A stretch of 64,000 nt of DNA, from positions 62,001-126,000 of the forward strand of contig NZ_JAQBOF010000037.1 of NCBI RefSeq assembly GCF_028288185.1, read 5' to 3'. Source of the DNA: Mucilaginibacter sp. (GTDB lineage Bacteria; Bacteroidota; Bacteroidia; Sphingobacteriales; Sphingobacteriaceae). Below the pieces are notes generated by a model. It saw nothing but the letters and a program-made list of their open reading frames with translations. It did not search any database and was not told the DNA's origin. Both the position numbers and the translations under genes were made by a program. Numbering within the stretch: position 1 is the first letter of the stretch; every line of letters starts with the position of its first letter. This document shows, in pieces, positions 2,683 through 10,284 of this stretch.

Positions 2683-3528
2683 ATGGGAAAGACACCAGAA
2701 AAACAGAACAGGCAACCGGGGATTGAATCCAAAATGAACCCAGCACCGGAATATATCAAAGCGGGTTACCGGGGTGCCGCTAAATTGAAAGATAGGGTCG
2801 CGTTGATCACCGGGGGTGACAGCGGCATAGGCCGTGCGGTCAGCGTGCATTTCGCCCGCGAAGGGGCGGATATCGCCATTGTTTATTTGGACGAGGATAT
2901 TGACGCGGAGGAAACCAAAAAACTGGTGGAAGCAGAGGGGAAGAAATGTTTATTATTAAAAGGGGATGTCAAGAAAAGCAGTTTTTGTAAAAAAGCCGTG
3001 CAGCAAACCATCAAAAATTTGGGTGGTTTGAATATACTCGTCAATAACGCCGGTATGCAGGTGCCGCAAAAAGACCCGAAGGCTATTGATGAAAAACAAC
3101 TGGACGATACTTTTCGCACTAATATCTTTGCTTATTTCCATTTCGCCAATGAAGCACTGGAATATATGAAAGCGGGCGACTGCATCATCAATACTACTTC
3201 CGTAACCGCCTATCGTTCTTCGCCAAACCTCGTAGATTATTCCTCCACTAAAGGCGCGATCACCTCTTTTACCCGCTCGCTGGCTACTAATATTGTCAAA
3301 AAGAAGATCAGGGTCAATGCGGTCGCGCCGGGGCCGGTATGGACTCCGCTAATCGTTTCTACTTTCGATAAAGAGAAAATCAAATCCTTTGGCTCGGAAA
3401 CCGCGATGAAAAGAGCTGGACAGCCTTCGGAACTCGCCCCGGCTTATGTTTTCCTGGCCTCGGACGATGCTTCGTTCATTACCGGGCAGGTGATTCATGT
3501 AAACGGAGGCGAAGTGGTCAATGGCTAA
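2683..3528 (+). CDS. SDR-family oxidoreductase, YghA / general stress protein 39 type
   Basis: A 281-residue short-chain dehydrogenase with the long N-terminal extension of the YghA/GSP39 group (PGIESKMNPAPEYIKAGYRG, residues 13-32). It carries the Rossmann cofactor motif TGGDSGIGRA near residues 43-52, NNAG in the middle, the catalytic YSSTKG, and the C-terminal GQVIHVNGG. Substrates of this group are poorly defined; members are often stress-induced aldehyde or alcohol reductases. The stop overlaps the start of the DUF72 gene by 8 bases, indicating coupled translation. Base composition matches the stress-gene block to its left. Confidence 0.88.
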   Translation: MGKTPEKQNRQPGIESKMNPAPEYIKAGYRGAAKLKDRVALITGGDSGIGRAVSVHFAREGADIAIVYLDEDIDAEETKKLVEAEGKKCLLLKGDVKKSSFCKKAVQQTIKNLGGLNILVNNAGMQVPQKDPKAIDEKQLDDTFRTNIFAYFHFANEALEYMKAGDCIINTTSVTAYRSSPNLVDYSSTKGAITSFTRSLATNIVKKKIRVNAVAPGPVWTPLIVSTFDKEKIKSFGSETAMKRAGQPSELAPAYVFLASDDASFITGQVIHVNGGEVVNG

Positions 3529-4267
3529 CTATTATGCCGGCACCAGCGGTATGGTATTGCCGGTGCCTAATAAAAGCTATTATCCGCAGGAATTTAAAGA
3601 ACGAAGCAGGCTGTGCTATTATGGCTCGCTGTTCAACAGTATCGAGGTCAATTCTTCGTTTTACAAAATACCGCAGGCCAGGACTATCGCTAAATGGGCG
3701 CAGGATGTCCCCCCTGATTTCAGGTTTACTTTTAAGCTTTGGCGGGGAATCACGCACGAAAAAGGCCTGGTATTTAACCGGGACGATATATACCGGTTTA
3801 TGCAGGCTATAGATTCCGCAGGAGAAAAAAAAGGGTGCCTGCTGGTCCAGTTCCCGCCGGGTGCCAAAGCTCACCTCATGCCGCAGTTGACGGCATTAGT
3901 AAATTACATTCGCGATGCAGACCGGGAACAAAGGTGGAAGATTGCTTTGGAGTTCAGGCATGCCTCCTGGTACAACGATAACATCCGGGAATTTGCAGCA
4001 AATCATGTCTTGTCTATCGTTCTGCAGGATATCCCGGCTTCGGCCACACCACTTGACTTCGCGGACAACGTGACCATTTACCTGCGTTTTCACGGGCCTG
4101 GTGGAAAATACCGGGGCAGCTATGACGACTATATTTTACAGGAATACAGTACCTACATCCGTGATTGGCAGGGAGAAGGAAAAACGGTTTATGTGTATTT
4201 TAACAATACAATGGGTGACGCAGTGCAAAATCTTGCCACCCTTAACCGGCTGGTGAATAACCACTGA
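3521..4267 (+). CDS. DUF72 (YecE-like) family protein
   Basis: A 248-residue DUF72 protein, predicted TIM-barrel fold. Motifs include the N-terminal YYAGTSGMV, FNSIEVNSSFYKIP near residues 38-51, FRFTFKLWRGITHEK, LVQFPPG, ALEFRHASWY near residues 144-153, and the C-terminal YVYFNNTMGDAV. The family's biochemical role is not established. It overlaps the preceding SDR gene by 8 bases and ends at a bidirectional terminator shared with efp. It is the last gene of the G+C-richer block. Confidence 0.88.
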   Translation: MANYYAGTSGMVLPVPNKSYYPQEFKERSRLCYYGSLFNSIEVNSSFYKIPQARTIAKWAQDVPPDFRFTFKLWRGITHEKGLVFNRDDIYRFMQAIDSAGEKKGCLLVQFPPGAKAHLMPQLTALVNYIRDADREQRWKIALEFRHASWYNDNIREFAANHVLSIVLQDIPASATPLDFADNVTIYLRFHGPGGKYRGSYDDYILQEYSTYIRDWQGEGKTVYVYFNNTMGDAVQNLATLNRLVNNH

Positions 4268-4347: not shown

Positions 4348-4908
4348 CTATTTTACTCGTTCAATATAATCCCCGGTACGGGTATCTACTTTTATTTTAT
4401 CGCCCTGGTTTATAAACAGCGGCACTTTTATTTCTACACCATTTTCTGTTGTAGCGGTTTTTAGCGCGCCCGATGAGGTATCGCCTTTAACTGCCGGCTC
4501 AGAATACGTAATTTCTAATTCAACGCTGTTAGGCATTTGTGCCATAATAGGCTCTTCGCTTTCAAACGATACAATAACATTCATGCCTTCTTTCAGAAAC
4601 CTTACAGACGGGCCCAATAGTGTTTTTGAAATATTAAACTGATCATAAGTAGTATTATTCATGATCACCATAAAATCACCATCATCATACAGATATTGGT
4701 AATCGCTGGTTTCTACCCGGCAAATTTCAACCTGTTCGTCAGTAGCTAAACGGGCCTCAACTATTTTTCCGGTTTTAATATTACGGAACTTATCTAAATA
4801 AAATGCCCCGCCTTTACCTGGTGTACGGTGCATAACTTCGGTAACGGTTACCAGTTCGCCATTATAACGTAATATATTCCCTACTTTAATTTCAGATGCC
4901 TTTGCCAT
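4348..4908 (-). CDS. efp: Elongation factor P
   Basis: A 186-residue EF-P, the ribosome factor that relieves stalling at polyproline stretches. The N-terminal KOW-like domain has the loop TPGKGGAF with Lys32 at the tip, the position that is post-translationally modified in many bacteria. The two following OB domains contain NTTYDQF and the C-terminal signature FINQGDKIKVDTRTGDYIERV. Length is normal. A well-formed promoter lies just upstream at 4937-4966. The gene is convergent with the DUF72 gene. Confidence 0.97.
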   Translation of the reverse strand: MAKASEIKVGNILRYNGELVTVTEVMHRTPGKGGAFYLDKFRNIKTGKIVEARLATDEQVEICRVETSDYQYLYDDGDFMVIMNNTTYDQFNISKTLLGPSVRFLKEGMNVIVSFESEEPIMAQMPNSVELEITYSEPAVKGDTSSGALKTATTENGVEIKVPLFINQGDKIKVDTRTGDYIERVK

Positions 4909-4978: not shown

Positions 4979-6634
4979 CTACTTCACCTCCGCATCAAAA
5001 GCACTATTCAAAATAACACCATTACGTTTAGCCTGTATCCAGATACGGTATTTACCCGGTTGCGGGAACGTATAGGGGAAACTTATCTGGTGCGCCATTG
5101 AGCCGTCTTTCATAGTCGTTATCTCCGGCATATTAACCATTAGCAGTTTATTGCGCTGGGGTTCATCCATAGCGTTTAAACGGGTTATAAAATGATTAAT
5201 GCTATCGGCAAATATGTTAGGTTGCGGTAAATATTTATCCAAAGGTTCATGAAAAGCTATCCTATCCAGTAACGCCTTTTGCGATGCCATCGAGTAGCTG
5301 CCCGCGGGATGCAGGTGTATGTAAACACTGCCGTCATCTTTTAATATTACGGCATGGGCCATCATACCCATATAGGGTTCTAATTTGGCGGGTTTATGAT
5401 CGGGATCCAATATTTCAAACTTGAGCATGGTTAGCTCGTTAGCCTTAATTTGCTGGCCGGGGCTCTGCATCCATACAGCGGTCGAGCCATCGTTTAATTT
5501 AGTTTCAACGCCCGGCAGGCCACAAATAGCAGCGCCTACCCTGATGGCATTTTTACTGCCTACGGGATTACTTATGTAATAAGTATCGTCTGGATCAGAT
5601 GCCGGGCCGGCGTTTGTTTTAAGGCTGGCGTTATGGAAAATATTTTCTTTAACTACCAATGTATCTACAATGGTTTCGGCAAAACCGCTAAGGCGAGTTA
5701 TATCTGCATAAACCCAATAAGTACCGGCAGGCAGATTGGGTACTTTAGCCACAAACGTAACCGAATCTAACCTGTGCGGGTGTAGGTGTGCAAATACGTC
5801 CAGATCGCCTGCTTTTATCAGGAACATGTGCATCAGCTTTCCGTGATCGGGTACCAGGTAATTCATTTTACGGGTAATGTTCATGCGGCGACTGCGACCC
5901 ATGCTGTTTAGTTGGGCGATATCAACAGTCAGTGTAAGCGTGCCGTTTTGCGCGTCTACTTTTGTAGCGGCCCGCAATGGCCGATATAAAAATTTATTGT
6001 AGCTATCGGCTGCCGAGTTCCACCAGGCGCGTCCGCCCCAAAGTATCAGTATCAATATAACCAACGCGCTAATGCTGCCAAAAACACGGCGTCTGCGCAA
6101 ACGTCTGGTCATTTCTTCGCCGGGATTAAGCTGGCTATCCCCCACACTCGAGCTGATTATAGTCACCATCAGCAACACCAAAAAAACCGACATCGCTAAC
6201 AACCCCCAGCCCAAACCGGCAGGCATTGATCTTTTAGCTGTCGATACGGCCATAACCGGCACTAATACAGTGCCCTTGCCTTTTGGCCCGTCAACCATAA
6301 CTTCAATGCTTGAGGTGCCAATGTTCATGAACCATATTTTTACATCAAAACGGCCCGGTTGAGTGTCTGATTGTTTGGCCAGATCGGCACGCGGGGTGCC
6401 GTCTGTTCCGGCGCTCCAGTACACAGGTTTGGCGCTTACCTGCACGCCCTTAACACCATCTTCCAAAAAAACAGTTACCATGGCAGTACCGGGTATTACA
6501 TCGGGCGGCATAATGCTTACTATCACTTTATAGGGGCCGGCATATCCTTCAAAGGTTACACCGGGGCTGCCTACGTGCGCGTAGCTTATGCATACTGTTA
6601 AAAGCAGTGTGATGCAAAAAATAATTTTCTTCAT
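4979..6634 (-). CDS. Membrane-anchored Met/His-rich protein with PmoB-like topology
   Basis: 551 residues. A signal peptide (1-19) ends in SYA, so the predicted mature N-terminus is His20. Residues 20-135 look like an extracytoplasmic beta-sandwich (PYKVIVSIMPPDVIPGT). Two transmembrane helices follow (about 138-160 and 184-200) around a basic loop RRLRRRR. A large outer domain (201-551) contains a duplicated unit: MHMFLI...FAHLHPHR (His269, 283, 285, 287) and MMAHAVIL...YIHLHPAG (His427, 440, 442). These Met/His clusters suggest copper binding. The order signal, beta domain, two helices, beta domain, with an N-terminal His, matches PmoB of particulate methane monooxygenase; however, the N-domain lacks PmoB's His-x-His. 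It lies 7 bases downstream of a PmoC-like membrane protein in the same operon. It could instead be a copper-handling protein. Confidence 0.6.
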   Translation of the reverse strand: MKKIIFCITLLLTVCISYAHVGSPGVTFEGYAGPYKVIVSIMPPDVIPGTAMVTVFLEDGVKGVQVSAKPVYWSAGTDGTPRADLAKQSDTQPGRFDVKIWFMNIGTSSIEVMVDGPKGKGTVLVPVMAVSTAKRSMPAGLGWGLLAMSVFLVLLMVTIISSSVGDSQLNPGEEMTRRLRRRRVFGSISALVILILILWGGRAWWNSAADSYNKFLYRPLRAATKVDAQNGTLTLTVDIAQLNSMGRSRRMNITRKMNYLVPDHGKLMHMFLIKAGDLDVFAHLHPHRLDSVTFVAKVPNLPAGTYWVYADITRLSGFAETIVDTLVVKENIFHNASLKTNAGPASDPDDTYYISNPVGSKNAIRVGAAICGLPGVETKLNDGSTAVWMQSPGQQIKANELTMLKFEILDPDHKPAKLEPYMGMMAHAVILKDDGSVYIHLHPAGSYSMASQKALLDRIAFHEPLDKYLPQPNIFADSINHFITRLNAMDEPQRNKLLMVNMPEITTMKDGSMAHQISFPYTFPQPGKYRIWIQAKRNGVILNSAFDAEVK

Positions 6635-6641
6635 AATAAAG

Positions 6642-7814
6642 TTACCGTTTAACTGATTTCATCCAACGGCCCCAGGTTAATCCCAGCCATGACGACAGGA
6701 TGCTTAATACAACAGCTATAGTCAAGCCGGTTATCAGCACGGTACCACCCTCCACATTATAAGGCGCAAATGCATAACGATATTGAAAGGCCGGGTCGGA
6801 GCCAAAGTACCATGATGTAGTACCAAAGAACCAGTTGCGGGCATATTCGGTAGTTAAAAAATCTCCGAATGGCCACTGTACGACAAATAGTATCAATGTA
6901 AAAGCCACTCCTAATGCCAGGGCCTTAATAAAAAAAATTTTATTTTGCAGACGCTGGTTAAGCCAATCAATAGCAATGGCCGGGAATATCAGCAGCAATG
7001 GAAAATGAAATGCTTGATAATGGGTGATATGATTAAATACCGGCCCCAGTTTTGGTTCGGCGTGGAATATCGGTAGTATCCATACCATAGCCGCCATTAC
7101 AATGGTGTAGATAGCAGCCATCCGCGTAGCGCCCCATTTACTGGTTGATGCCCGCGATATGGCCACCAAAAACAACGGGAATAAACCCGATGCCACTTGG
7201 TAAAACAGCGTTTTATGCATGGCGTAACGGCCAAGGTATTCGGAAGCGATGGTAAATAACATCACCAATAAAAAGCCCGATGATAATATAAAGCACCATG
7301 ATATAGCGTTAGCAGAATAAGTATTCACTGCCGATTTACGATTTTGGAGCGCTATTACACTCACCATGGCTCCAAATTGTATAGTTATCATTCCCAGTAA
7401 AAGCACGGTATGCGGCGGCGAAAGTATCTGTACATCCAGCCCAAAGGTATTGTGCCACCAGTCGTCAAACGGCGCAGAAGTGATCATGGCAAAAGCCCCC
7501 CAGATGCAAAACAAAGCTCCTAGCGATCCATAAAATACTTTCCAGAAATTTATAGACTGCTGTTTTTCTTCGGTACGGCCAGCAAAGGTTAAACGTAACA
7601 CATAATAGCCCGAGAATAGCCCCGATGTTATAGCACCGATGTATGTAGCCAAATGCGGTGGCGAAAACAAACCATCCCGACCAATACTGGTATGCCATGA
7701 GATATCCCAGATCAATCCCACCGTTATACAAAAGGATGCAAATACAACCGCATAAATGTAAACCGGCAGCGTGCGGGTGGTAGTATGATTTGGTGATAGG
7801 GTCATAGTACTCAT
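6642..7814 (-). CDS. Polytopic membrane protein with duplicated D-x3-H...H motif (PmoC-like)
   Basis: About 390 residues from the ATG at 7814; an upstream ATG at 7850 would add 12 residues. About 9-10 transmembrane helices are predicted by eye. Two internal motifs match each other: DISWHTSIGRDGLFSPPH (Asp37, His41, Asp47, His54) and DDWWHNTFGLDVQILSPPH (Asp117, His121, Asp127, His135). The spacings are D-x3-H-x12-H and D-x3-H-x13-H. From memory, the copper ligands of Methylococcus PmoC are Asp156/His160/His173 and Asn227/His231/His245, which have the same two spacings. A later His-rich segment holds His251, 262, 265 and 270. No gene clearly resembling PmoA adjoins. It is the first gene of a pair with the PmoB-like protein. 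The activity is unknown; the relationship is inferred from motif spacing only. Confidence 0.55.
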   Translation of the reverse strand: MSTMTLSPNHTTTRTLPVYIYAVVFASFCITVGLIWDISWHTSIGRDGLFSPPHLATYIGAITSGLFSGYYVLRLTFAGRTEEKQQSINFWKVFYGSLGALFCIWGAFAMITSAPFDDWWHNTFGLDVQILSPPHTVLLLGMITIQFGAMVSVIALQNRKSAVNTYSANAISWCFILSSGFLLVMLFTIASEYLGRYAMHKTLFYQVASGLFPLFLVAISRASTSKWGATRMAAIYTIVMAAMVWILPIFHAEPKLGPVFNHITHYQAFHFPLLLIFPAIAIDWLNQRLQNKIFFIKALALGVAFTLILFVVQWPFGDFLTTEYARNWFFGTTSWYFGSDPAFQYRYAFAPYNVEGGTVLITGLTIAVVLSILSSWLGLTWGRWMKSVKR

Positions 7815-7904
7815 AGAGATCTGTTTTATATTAATTAAGTGGCAACGCAAGCCATAGCTTTACGATGTACAACGCACTAAGGTACATCAAAAACTTAAAC
7901 ATAA

Positions 7905-7930
7905 AAAAGCCCCGCAAATGCAGGGCTTTT
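7905..7930 (-). terminator. Hairpin after the small Pro/Glu-rich gene
   Basis: AAAAGCCC...GGGCTTTT inverted repeat, with an inner GC/GC pairing around the AAAT loop, flanked by A- and T-runs. It lies downstream of the small minus-strand gene at 7953-8126 and upstream of the PmoC-like gene, insulating the latter. Confidence 0.75.
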
Positions 7931-7952
7931 AATAAATAATTAGTTTTTAAGC

Positions 7953-8126
7953 TTATACATCACCAACTTCTTTTTGAATGGATGGTGGCGGTAACTCCTG
8001 CGGCACCTCTTCTATTTCTTTTTCGGGCAAATCCGGCCCTTTTGGGTCTGCAGGTTGTTGTATCTCGGGACGCTCGGGTTGTACCGGCATTTCATCGGGT
8101 TCGTTTGGTACTGTTTGCTTTTTCAT
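7953..8126 (-). CDS. Small Pro/Glu-rich protein, 57 aa
   Basis: An ATG-initiated 57-codon frame beginning MKKQTVPNEPDEMPVQPERP and continuing with many Pro, Glu, Asp and Gln residues, probably disordered. The frame is clean, ends in TAA just before a terminator hairpin, and its codon use fits a real gene. Small proteins of this composition occur in related Sphingobacteriaceae, but I know of no function. It sits between the SRPBCC pair and the PmoC-like gene, on the same strand as both. Confidence 0.6.
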   Translation of the reverse strand: MKKQTVPNEPDEMPVQPERPEIQQPADPKGPDLPEKEIEEVPQELPPPSIQKEVGDV

Positions 8127-8186
8127 GGTATTAGTAAAATACCTATAAGGCTAAAATTGTTTCAGCAAAATCGCGTAAGCAACCTA

Positions 8187-8660
8187 TTAATCCTTATTTT
8201 CCCATTCTAAGGTACCTTCCTTTTTTCTATAAGGCGTGCCGTTGCCGGTAGTTAAGAAAACATGTATGCTACCCATAAAATAATCCCAAGCCGGTTCACA
8301 TACGTCATAACATTCAACGCTTTTATTCAAACCTTCATGCAGCATGGTTAATGTAGCGCCGTATTCATCGCTTGTAATTGTCCATATTATCTTAGTGCCT
8401 ACCCATTCATCTTTTTTCGCCAGCGTCTCCATATCAATATAGGCCTTTAGGCATAGCCATACAACTTTCTCATTCGGCACTGCTTCAAATATTTCGAAGG
8501 TCTTTTTTGTTCCGCCAAAGGCGATGTTAAATTGGTCGCCTTTTTGATTTGCCGCTCCCGATAGATCATCGCTCCACCAATCCTGGATGTGTTCGGTAAT
8601 CGCCGCGTATACTTCGCTAGCCGGGTTGTTTACCGTAAAGCTGTTTTTATAATTGTTCAT
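8187..8660 (-). CDS. SRPBCC/AHSA1-type protein (second of a tandem pair)
   Basis: A 157-residue helix-grip (START-like) protein. The N-terminus NSFTVNNPASEVYAAITEHIQDWWSDD is the typical AHSA1/SRPBCC opening, followed by KVVWLCLKAYIDMET and the C-terminal long helix CEPAWDYFMGSIHVFLTTG. Such proteins bind hydrophobic ligands or act as polyketide cyclase-like or stress proteins; the ligand is unknown. It is a paralogue of the next upstream gene (8678-9169), which shares the NPR/WWS.., YECYDIC..AW and LxTGxGxP segments. The 17-base gap implies a shared transcript. Confidence 0.8.
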   Translation of the reverse strand: MNNYKNSFTVNNPASEVYAAITEHIQDWWSDDLSGAANQKGDQFNIAFGGTKKTFEIFEAVPNEKVVWLCLKAYIDMETLAKKDEWVGTKIIWTITSDEYGATLTMLHEGLNKSVECYDVCEPAWDYFMGSIHVFLTTGNGTPYRKKEGTLEWENKD

Positions 8661-8677
8661 ATCGTAAATTTAATATA

Positions 8678-9169
8678 TTACTTCCCCTCAGATCCTAGCC
8701 TCTTTTCATCTTCAGTTTGTGGTTTCTCCTTGCCGTTAGGCATTCCTTTACCGGTGGCAATTAAATTGCGCAAACTGTTTTGTATGTAAGTAGTCCAGGC
8801 ATCATGGCATATATCATAACATTCGTAAGCAGGCACCAACCCGTGGTGAGTAAATTTCATCTGCGTTTTATTGCCTTCCTTAGAAATTTCAAAGCTGATG
8901 GTGTTACCTATCCATTCGGTTTTATCAGTAGTAAACTTAAAATAGTTTTCTAACACCTGCCAAACCACTTTTTGGTCGGGCACTAATTCTATAACTTTTA
9001 TTTTGCAGATGTGAACGTCCTGGAAATGATAGTTAAATGCCTCGTTCAATTTATCTGTAGGACCTTCAATTTCTTCGGACCACCATCCGCGAGGATTGTT
9101 AATGGCATCGAATACTTGTTTCGTAGTTTGGTCTACCAATAAGGTAGTAGTAAAATCTGGTGTGCTCAT
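8678..9169 (-). CDS. SRPBCC/AHSA1-type protein (first of a tandem pair)
   Basis: A 163-residue SRPBCC-domain protein. Visible family features are TKQVFDAINNPRGWWSEEIEG at the N-terminus, KVVWQVLENYFKF in the sheet, WIGNTISFEISKEGNKTQMKFTHHGL, and the C-terminal helix CHDAWTTYIQNSLRNLIATG. The tail after GKGMPNGKEKPQ is charged and probably flexible. It is divergent from a GlxA-type regulator starting at 9313, a common arrangement for a regulator and its target, so that protein may control this pair. No ligand can be assigned. Confidence 0.8.
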   Translation of the reverse strand: MSTPDFTTTLLVDQTTKQVFDAINNPRGWWSEEIEGPTDKLNEAFNYHFQDVHICKIKVIELVPDQKVVWQVLENYFKFTTDKTEWIGNTISFEISKEGNKTQMKFTHHGLVPAYECYDICHDAWTTYIQNSLRNLIATGKGMPNGKEKPQTEDEKRLGSEGK

Positions 9170-9267
9170 TGTAGTATGATCTTAGTTATTAATTATTTAA
9201 TTATGTTTAAGTAAAATTAGGGGCTTAATTTGATATTGTTCGGGTGTAAAATAGACATTATAACGGG

Positions 9268-9298
9268 TTGATTTGGACAACATTATCAATTACCTTTA
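9268..9298 (+). promoter_or_regulatory. Probable promoter of the GlxA-type regulator
   Basis: TTG at 9268-9270, a 20-base spacer, then TACCTTTA at 9291-9298, close to TAnnTTTG. The regulator's ATG follows 14 bases later. Confidence 0.5.
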
Positions 9299-9312
9299 TC
9301 AAAAAAATCATC

Positions 9313-10284
9313 ATGAAGCAAGTAACCATAGTTGTACCAAAAGGCAAGGTCACTTTAAGCAGCGTAACCGGATCGTTCGAGATACTGCGGTCAGCCAACG
9401 CGCATTGGCAAAAGCTTGGCAACAAAACGATGATGGAAATATGCATAGCCGGTTTTATGCCCGAATTGAAATTAGACGCAGGATTCTTCTCAATCCACCC
9501 GGTAAATATCAACGATATACAAAAAGCCGACTTAATCCTTATCCCCGCCACTGTTTATGATGAAAATTTGTTTAAAGAGAATGAAGAGTTGCTTAACTGG
9601 ATAAAAGAGCAATATAAAAAGGGCGCCGAAATAGCTACCATGTGCTCGGGTGCGTTTTTACTGGCCTCTACCGGTTTGCTTGACGGTAAAACCTGTTCTA
9701 CCCATTGGGTCCATGCAGCTAATTTTAAGCGGTTGTTTCCAAAAGTTGATCTGCTGCCGGATAAACTGCTCACTTCAGAAAAAGGAATATATACTAATGG
9801 CGGCGCTTACTCTTTTTTAAACCTGGTGCTTTTTTTAGTTGAAAAATATTTTGACCGGCAGACGGCCATTTACTGTTCAAAAATTTTCCAGATAGATATG
9901 GATAGAACGTCCCAATCGCCTTTTTTTATTTTCCAAAAGCAAAAGAATCATGGTGATGAATTGATAGACAAGGCACAAACTTATATCGAAGAAAACCTGA
10001 GTGGGAAGATATCCTTTGAGGAACTGGCATCCAAACTGGCTATCAGCAGGCGCAACTTTGATCGCCGGTTTATTAAAGCTACCGGTAACACCCCGGTTGA
10101 GTATTTGCAGCGTGTAAAAGTTGAAGTCGCCAAAAGCACTTTAGAAAAAGGCCGGAAAAGCATTTTTGAGGTAATGAACGAGGTAGGCTATGCAGACGAC
10201 AAAGCGTTTAGAGAGGTCTTTAAAAAAATAACCGGCTTATCGCCGCTGGATTATAAGGCCAGATATAATAAGGAAGCTGTTTAG
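9313..10284 (+). CDS. GlxA-family transcriptional regulator (DJ-1/PfpI + AraC HTH)
   Basis: 323 residues from the ATG at 9313. An upstream in-frame Met exists, but MKQVTIVVPKGKV is the natural domain start and lies behind a promoter-like element. Residues 1-180 form a class-I glutamine-amidotransferase-like (DJ-1/PfpI) domain with the nucleophile-elbow segment ATMCSGAFLLAS (Cys111). Residues 215-320 form an AraC/XylS DNA-binding domain with two helix-turn-helix units (FEELASKLAISRRNFDRRF and EVGYADDKAFREVFKKITG). The amidotransferase-like domain probably senses a ligand and need not be catalytic. It is divergent from the SRPBCC pair, its likely target. Confidence 0.9.
   Translation: MKQVTIVVPKGKVTLSSVTGSFEILRSANAHWQKLGNKTMMEICIAGFMPELKLDAGFFSIHPVNINDIQKADLILIPATVYDENLFKENEELLNWIKEQYKKGAEIATMCSGAFLLASTGLLDGKTCSTHWVHAANFKRLFPKVDLLPDKLLTSEKGIYTNGGAYSFLNLVLFLVEKYFDRQTAIYCSKIFQIDMDRTSQSPFFIFQKQKNHGDELIDKAQTYIEENLSGKISFEELASKLAISRRNFDRRFIKATGNTPVEYLQRVKVEVAKSTLEKGRKSIFEVMNEVGYADDKAFREVFKKITGLSPLDYKARYNKEAV

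Follow-up and report, generated by a model that had tools for sequence, protein, structure and literature searches.

The 64,000-nucleotide window analysed here (Mucilaginibacter sp., assembly GCF_028288185.1, contig NZ_JAQBOF010000037.1, positions 62,001 to 126,000; coordinates below are those of the window) carries two adjoining minus-strand genes whose products seem to be built on the plan of PmoC and PmoA, the membrane subunits of particulate methane monooxygenase (pMMO), and to be related to the copper membrane monooxygenase (CuMMO) superfamily. The first gene of the pair, at 6642..7814, encodes a polytopic, C-like protein of 390 amino acids in which ten long helices, a PmoA-like predicted fold and PmoC-like metal motifs occur together; it starts at the ATG at 7814, and an alternative TTG at 7850 would give a longer protein. 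After a gap of 7 bases follows the gene for its B-like partner, at 4979..6634, a protein of 551 amino acids composed of a signal peptide, a beta domain, two transmembrane (TM) helices and two further beta domains. Both open reading frames (ORFs) and the tandem Asp/His motifs of the polytopic protein had been singled out in an earlier, sequence-only reading of this DNA, and both lie where that reading placed them. Neither protein reaches any Pfam or NCBIfam family in library scans, and single-sequence and profile searches of Protein Data Bank (PDB) sequences return no relative of either one, pMMO included. The closest named relative of the polytopic protein, at 94% identity, comes from a Mucilaginibacter genome.

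The resemblance to PmoC centers on two motifs, a CuC-like Asp37-x3-His41-(Arg46 Asp47)-x12-His54 at 7653..7706 and a CuD-like Asp117-x3-His121-(Asp127)-x13-His135 at 7410..7466, both on the minus strand. According to excerpts of PMC12576850, the PmoC ligands are Asp156/His160/His173 at CuC and Asn227/His231/His245 at CuD, with Arg165 and Phe177 placed near the site; the sequence-only reading had named the same ligands and the same spacings. Both spacings in the window protein are identical to those of PmoC, with Asp instead of Asn at the CuD-like site. The family thus shares with PmoC, AmoC and HmoC (PF04896) the tandem [DN]x3H...H arrangement, in which the His pairs are separated by 12 and 13 residues, as well as an acid at the sixth position past the first His of both motifs and an Arg before that acid in the first motif; it differs in the CuD Asp, in its longer chain (390 amino acids) and in giving no match over the PF04896 cut-off. 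Conservation follows the same residues. In an alignment of 57 sequences from Bacteroidota and Actinomycetota, just 20 columns are invariant, and 18 of these lie within the two motif blocks; the invariant set includes all six ligands, as the sequence-only reading required, together with Arg46, the exact counterpart of PmoC Arg165, the adjoining Asp47, Asp127 of the second motif, and Tyr58, the counterpart of Phe177. The rows are the window protein with 52 references out of a further 66, after an 85% identity filter (alignment A2), and four actinobacterial sequences (A7); relatives from Rubrobacter (L095), Mycolicibacterium (L196) and Streptomyces (L195 and FR1) stand outside it. The patterns of the 84,980-species scan that supplied the references contain Trp36, Asp37, Ala114, Pro115, Asp117 and Trp120, so that the conservation of these residues is partly built in, and the rows were then chosen by a motif expression, to which 89 of 90 loci yielded an ORF (the exception, L089, being a chance match); the ligand His residues are absent from the scan patterns.

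The tandem motif exceeds chance expectation. Among 3,771 ORFs of at least 100 amino acids from 186 sequences, a redundant set chosen because its members carry such genes, 186 have the loose form, and 185 of these 186 ORFs also have the core D..[WL]H....RD......H that PmoC shares. The exception is the Rubrobacter relative, in which RE replaces RD and the match lies in a different frame from the annotated gene. The strict pattern, with the extra acid and a Pro, is present in 46 of 57 family members and in 11 of 12 PmoC/AmoC/HmoC sequences, and in none of 3,679 other ORFs or 114,000 shuffled proteins. Those 12 sequences (seven from plasmids and five from viral contigs, the latter being the remainder of 80 phage loci after a redundancy filter) also formed the PmoC profile for comparison by hhalign; on the viral contigs a single-protein scan for PmoC was negative and an alignment-based scan positive. 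Scores against this profile were 35.8 for the Bacteroidota family, 37.9 for the Actinomycetota relatives and 38.1 for both profiles joined, compared with 30.7, 24.9 and 31.1 for the best of 200 column shuffles of each, so that no shuffle did as well, and the alignment keeps the ligands of both motifs in register with PmoC. The proposed relationship of the metal motifs to PmoC is supported by these scores and by the absence of the strict pattern from other ORFs. The similarity resides in residues 1-195, for which none of 60 shuffles scored as well. For residues 190-390 there is no similarity to PmoC (38 of 60 shuffles as good) and a weak similarity to PmoA, with a score of 23.9 compared with 19.9 for the best of 60 shuffles; when the whole protein was set against PmoA, one of 60 shuffles was as good. 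The PmoC and PmoA profiles show no similarity to each other (5 of 60 shuffles as good), and common descent of PmoA and PmoC is therefore without support here. Among curated families, PF04896 (AmoC) does not match the window protein, and none of the 53 A2 rows matches it at E≤0.1. The window genome, which is 94% complete, gave no match to PF04896, PF02461 or PF04744, and all three were matched in a control plasmid; for PF02461 this agrees with the claim that no separate PmoA accompanies the pair. Two sub-cut-off AmoC matches in Bacteroidota genomes were set aside as chance, the ORFs looking, from their sequences, like sugar-nucleotide and glycosyltransferase genes.

The predicted fold points to the same enzymes. 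An AlphaFold2 model of the polytopic protein from the 53-row alignment has a mean predicted local distance difference test score (pLDDT) of 87.6 and a predicted template modelling score of 0.88, with block means of 59-88 around the two metal loops. When the model was compared by VIA-align with 998 Foldseek candidate chains, the best 13 entries were all pMMO or ammonia monooxygenase (AMO), at Z 9.2-14.4 and over up to 209 residues, and the first unrelated chain had Z 8.7. The best match, 6cxh_B (Z 14.4, 4.0 Å), covers 205 of 241 residues, nearly the entire PmoA chain; others include 9cl6_B of AMO (Z 13.9) and, lowest of the 13, 3chx_B (Z 9.2). All 13 chains are A subunits by a sequence table, for some entries by entry and range, the chain letters in the table being examples. 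The predicted fold falls in the enzyme group that the sequence-only reading had named, but on the A subunit rather than on PmoC; because one best chain is shown per entry, the absence of PmoC chains carries no counter-weight. PmoA itself shares with the polytopic protein this predicted fold and the weak profile similarity of the C-terminal half, but it lacks the PmoC ligand pattern, and a single chain here seems to join a PmoA-like fold with PmoC-like metal sites. In the model, helices 18-43 and 98-124 each end with the Asp and first His of a motif, whose third ligand opens the following helix. The metal hairpins follow helices 1 and 3 and would therefore share one membrane face, as a joint metal-binding role of the motifs had been taken to demand. 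The other termini and loops hold 10 Lys and Arg in 58 residues, compared with 6 in 90 on the metal side, which would thus be periplasmic.

The partner resembles PmoB (PF04744) in plan and not in profile. Like PmoB and AmoB, it is predicted to have a signal peptide, a beta domain, two TM helices and a beta region, with a His at the mature N-terminus. That residue, His20 (6575..6577), is invariant in all 46 rows of the partner alignment A3, which comprises the window protein and 45 partners and excludes partners truncated at the end of a locus, near-identical sequences and loci in which no partner was recognised. Ala, Ser or Gly precedes it at −1 in 46 of 46, making a free N-terminal His, as in PmoB, a fair prediction; the AlphaFold2 model (mean pLDDT 81.7) has a confidence below 50 around it. 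No profile similarity to PmoB was detected for the whole protein or domain by domain, and PmoB is not among the 50 entries shown in the structural comparison of the partner model, so that of the proposed PmoB likeness the domain order and the predicted N-terminal His are supported and homology is not. The CuB ligands of PmoB are His33, His137 and His139, according to excerpts of PMC12576850. The first periplasmic beta domain of the partner (residues 20-137; 6224..6577) has no conserved His in residues 21-137 across the 46 rows, so the CuB site is not there, in agreement with the earlier remark that the later His-x-His of PmoB is missing. Instead, two HxHP regions follow the TM helices (residues 139-166 and 177-213 in the model; 5996..6220): the second periplasmic region (residues 214-345; 5600..5995) has Asp263-His264, His269 and His283-x-His285-Pro, and the third (residues 346-551; 4982..5599) has His427 and His440-x-His442, all invariant in 46 of 46. 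All these partner segments lie on the minus strand.

The first partner domain is a beta sandwich and matches Helicobacter pylori CrdA best in structure (Z 11.0, 2.6 Å, 102 residues), tied with a CBM56 module (Z 10.3) and the copper protein FetP (Z 10.2); the tie with CBM56 indicates a common sandwich fold. CrdA is described in excerpts of PMC9182242 as a periplasmic copper-binding protein with a Met-rich motif. The partner shares the sandwich fold with such CrdA/FetP-type proteins but is membrane-anchored, is paired with a PmoC-like protein and has no Met-rich motif in its sequence. Of the 46 partners, 8 match YtkA weakly (best E 9e-4), with chance-like families at the same level.

In a scan of 84,980 species the family was confirmed at 387 places, the best 80 of which gave the 79 loci examined. 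By title, 78 of these are Bacteroidota, on our assumption as to where their genera belong, and one is titled only 'bacterium'. The distribution is patchy, with full-length matches in 4 of 61 genus genomes and 5 of 395 phylum genomes (the window genome counted in both); a sixth phylum match (E 5.8e-4) spans 90 positions outside the motifs. In 78 of 79 loci the partner gene comes after the polytopic gene on a shared strand, at distances of up to 3.1 kb, and the two genes give full-length matches in the same five of the 395 phylum genomes; a pairing of the two genes, which the sequence-only reading had put forward as a point to check, is thus supported. At the locus L016 there is a C-like gene with every motif residue, and no partner could be recognised in the 8 kb to each side of it. 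Two loci have two C-like genes each: in L087 (genome G308) they stand in tandem (1378-2673 and 2804-4093; 300 of 406 alignment columns identical) with one partner after them, a layout that recalls the C-A-B order of pMMO, and in L056 (5909-7132 and 8834-10042; 252 of 392 columns identical) the partner lies between them. No account of the family was found in the open-licence literature, the scope of a search that left subscription papers and preprints outside; the amoC of PMC6440738, in the excerpts of that paper, is a gene of a soluble-type alkene monooxygenase.

Remoter relatives occur on eight actinobacterial plasmid records. Four of them were aligned and match the Bacteroidota family with a profile probability of 98.7 (E 1.6e-16). 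In each, the PmoC-like part leads into a hydrophobic stretch ending in Ala-x-Ala; HDPGQG comes next, then a beta-type domain and finally another hydrophobic helix, an architecture that looks like the addition of a partner-like domain. Profile alignments support this only weakly, the first partner domain scoring 22.0 against the fused domain (best of 40 shuffles 16.5) and the second slightly better, at 25.8. In Mycolicibacterium chubuense NBB4, a true hmoCAB operon and a fused relative from the present family share one plasmid, pMYCCH.01 (L094, 4959-6428; L098, 1536-4599), so that nature offers the two side by side for comparison. Partner-like HxHP domain pairs also occur in two genomes without the polytopic gene (L193, 661-1818; L194, 814-1818), behind a motif of the heavy-metal-binding type, CPMHPE...CPKCGM, and beside what we take to be DUF305-like and TolC-like genes. 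Partner-domain matches were found on 15 plasmid records, and the three regions opened show no clear copper locus; one, on a Planococcus plasmid, carries YdhK and DUF305 genes.

Metal-related genes lie near the relative in six of the seven actinobacterial plasmid records opened (all of the eight but Streptomyces FR1). These are a multicopper oxidase and a cupredoxin in Streptomyces F2, a cupredoxin and a heavy-metal ATPase in S. mirabilis, a copper-binding four-helix protein and two heavy-metal ATPases in Leifsonia, heavy-metal ATPases and a metal regulator within 15 kb in M. chubuense, copC just upstream of the relative in Mycolicibacterium vanbaalenii and, the weakest metal context of the six, a BlaI/MecI/CopY-type regulator and a YHS gene in M. 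aubagnense. In the Bacteroidota, no third family stands near the pair in more than 25 of the 79 loci. The larger sets of neighbours, an NlpC/P60-type gene just upstream in 25 loci and a penicillin-acylase-like gene in 18, look like synteny shared by related genomes; ripB/ripC or NlpC/P60 genes also lie by L093, L094, L095 and L196, hence in both phyla, possibly by chance. No gene suggesting a carbon substrate is common to the loci. The contexts in the two phyla disagree, and only the actinobacterial plasmid context points to copper or metal handling. In the window, the pair is followed at 4348-4908 by a gene that, judged by its sequence, is elongation factor P-like. Upstream of the pair lie a terminator-like stem at 7930-7905, of a kind no more frequent in the window than in shuffled sequences by total scan count, and, at 8187-9169, two adjoining small genes on the same strand that presumably encode SRPBCC/AHSA1-type proteins.

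Collectively, these comparisons of sequences and models lead us to favor, at somewhat better than even confidence, a two-subunit, periplasm-facing copper membrane complex that would form a distant branch from the stem of the CuMMO superfamily. In such a complex, His20 and the HxHP triads of the partner would bind copper in the periplasm and hand it on to a pair of copper sites of the polytopic subunit, at which it would carry out redox chemistry with O2; for the actinobacterial relatives, copper itself is most likely the substrate, in Cu(I) oxidation, storage or delivery. Because of the metal-locus contexts and because no carbon-substrate gene is common to the loci, we commit to copper redox chemistry with copper itself as the likely substrate. 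The neighboring explanations overlap with this one, and their probabilities need not add up to one. CopC-CopD and YcnJ are copper systems that serve as models for a non-catalytic carrier or importer, in which the partner would bind copper and the polytopic protein would move or store it. The CrdA-like first partner domain (tied as it is), the weak YtkA matches, the position of the M. vanbaalenii member directly downstream of copC and the metal loci around the actinobacterial relatives all suit a carrier, but the Arg and Asp that form the second shell of the PmoC sites are retained, the Pfam families to which A3 and A2 rows give matches at E≤0.1 include neither CopC nor CopD, and nearly all Bacteroidota pairs lack adjacent metal genes; we regard a purely carrying role as doubtful, though well worth keeping in view.

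Monooxygenase activity is possible for the complex, and from sequence and model copper handling appears at least as likely. A true copper monooxygenase would be a reduced CuMMO in which a merged PmoA/PmoC-type subunit and a PmoB-like partner hydroxylate a small or lipid substrate at CuC/CuD. For such an enzyme speak the CuC and CuD ligand sets kept with their second shell, the PmoA-like predicted fold, the PmoB-like order of the partner with its predicted N-terminal His, the two-gene unit that stands alone in Bacteroidota, and the standing of CuC, in excerpts of PMC9544873, as a current candidate for the pMMO active site. However, the first partner domain has no CuB HxH, no homology of the partner to PmoB was detected, no substrate gene is conserved beside the pair in most loci, and the relatives sit in metal-locus contexts, and we consider this explanation unlikely, though a rival to be taken seriously.

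Several observations weigh against the copper complex that we favor, in which both the copper assignment and the activity are predicted. The hhalign probability to PmoC is moderate, at 30-49%. AmoC is the top Pfam match of two of the four actinobacterial relatives, over residues 27-53 and 30-67 (E 0.044 and 0.094), and in NCBIfam a further two AmoC models are matched at best E 0.014 and 0.034, but all of this lies below cut-off, at a level (E 0.014-0.094) where unrelated families also turn up (Zip and polysaccharide synthesis for A2 rows, thiolase and an IcmG/DotF model for A7 rows); the matches gain weight because three AmoC models agree, in Pfam over the first motif. Foldseek comparison of the polytopic model with PDB and viral models, part of the fold check that the sequence-only reading had proposed, gave nothing significant, and helical models without relatives can, by the tool's own note, reach a best Z of about 14; even so, chance is hard to invoke for 13 entries from the very enzyme group indicated by the motifs. 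In the Mycolicibacterium relative L196 (616 amino acids; 6871-9632; its gene directly downstream of copC), 14 residues separate the first His pair where the other members have 12, so this distance is not fixed across the widest family. For the first partner domain, a carbohydrate-binding module does about as well as CrdA. As to context, the Rubrobacter locus, one of the seven records opened, has no metal-related gene, the ATPases near the relatives are annotated as heavy-metal and not as copper ATPases, and plasmids are rich in resistance genes. Among the 79 Bacteroidota loci one has a heavy-metal ATPase within about 8 kb, and none matches copC, cupredoxin, CopY, metal-regulator, DUF305 or TolC queries at E 1e-6, a threshold that would miss distant relatives. 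The same moderate profile probabilities, the Foldseek result and the lack of significant matches in single-sequence and profile searches would also suit convergence, that is, an unrelated polytopic metal protein with two helix hairpins that resemble the PmoC sites by accident; but the order of the motifs, the one-residue difference between the sites and the second shell are all as in PmoC, the fold match leads independently to the same enzyme group, and we judge convergence very improbable.

Returning to the copper complex on a CuMMO plan, the features of the superfamily that are present are the CuC spacing and the CuD spacing (with Asp for Asn), each in 57 of 57 sequences, and the PmoA-like predicted fold. 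A match over the AmoC cut-off, CuB in the partner and the three-gene CAB operon (two genes in 78 of 79 loci) are absent, and for these three reasons the pair is not filed as a CuMMO. The divergent archaeal CuMMOs described in excerpts of PMC9038741 keep CuB and CuC and lack CuD; the site loss is reversed in the family described here.

The location of the pMMO active site is unsettled, with CuC one candidate according to excerpts of PMC9544873. A relative in which CuC and CuD persist together with the second shell of each, and from which CuB is missing, is in effect a natural experiment on this question: if the complex activates O2, then CuB is not needed, and if it only handles copper, then the origin of the CuC/CuD fold may lie in copper handling. 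In the boldest form of the former outcome, to which we give rather a small chance, a shade below that of the reduced CuMMO, the pair would be a minimal active copper monooxygenase or oxidase that works on CuC/CuD alone, without CuB, through one chain resembling a common ancestor of PmoA and PmoC. Were this true, the disputed location of the pMMO active site would become testable in a simpler and culturable system. The family is not rare and is present in culturable bacteria such as Mucilaginibacter and Dyadobacter.

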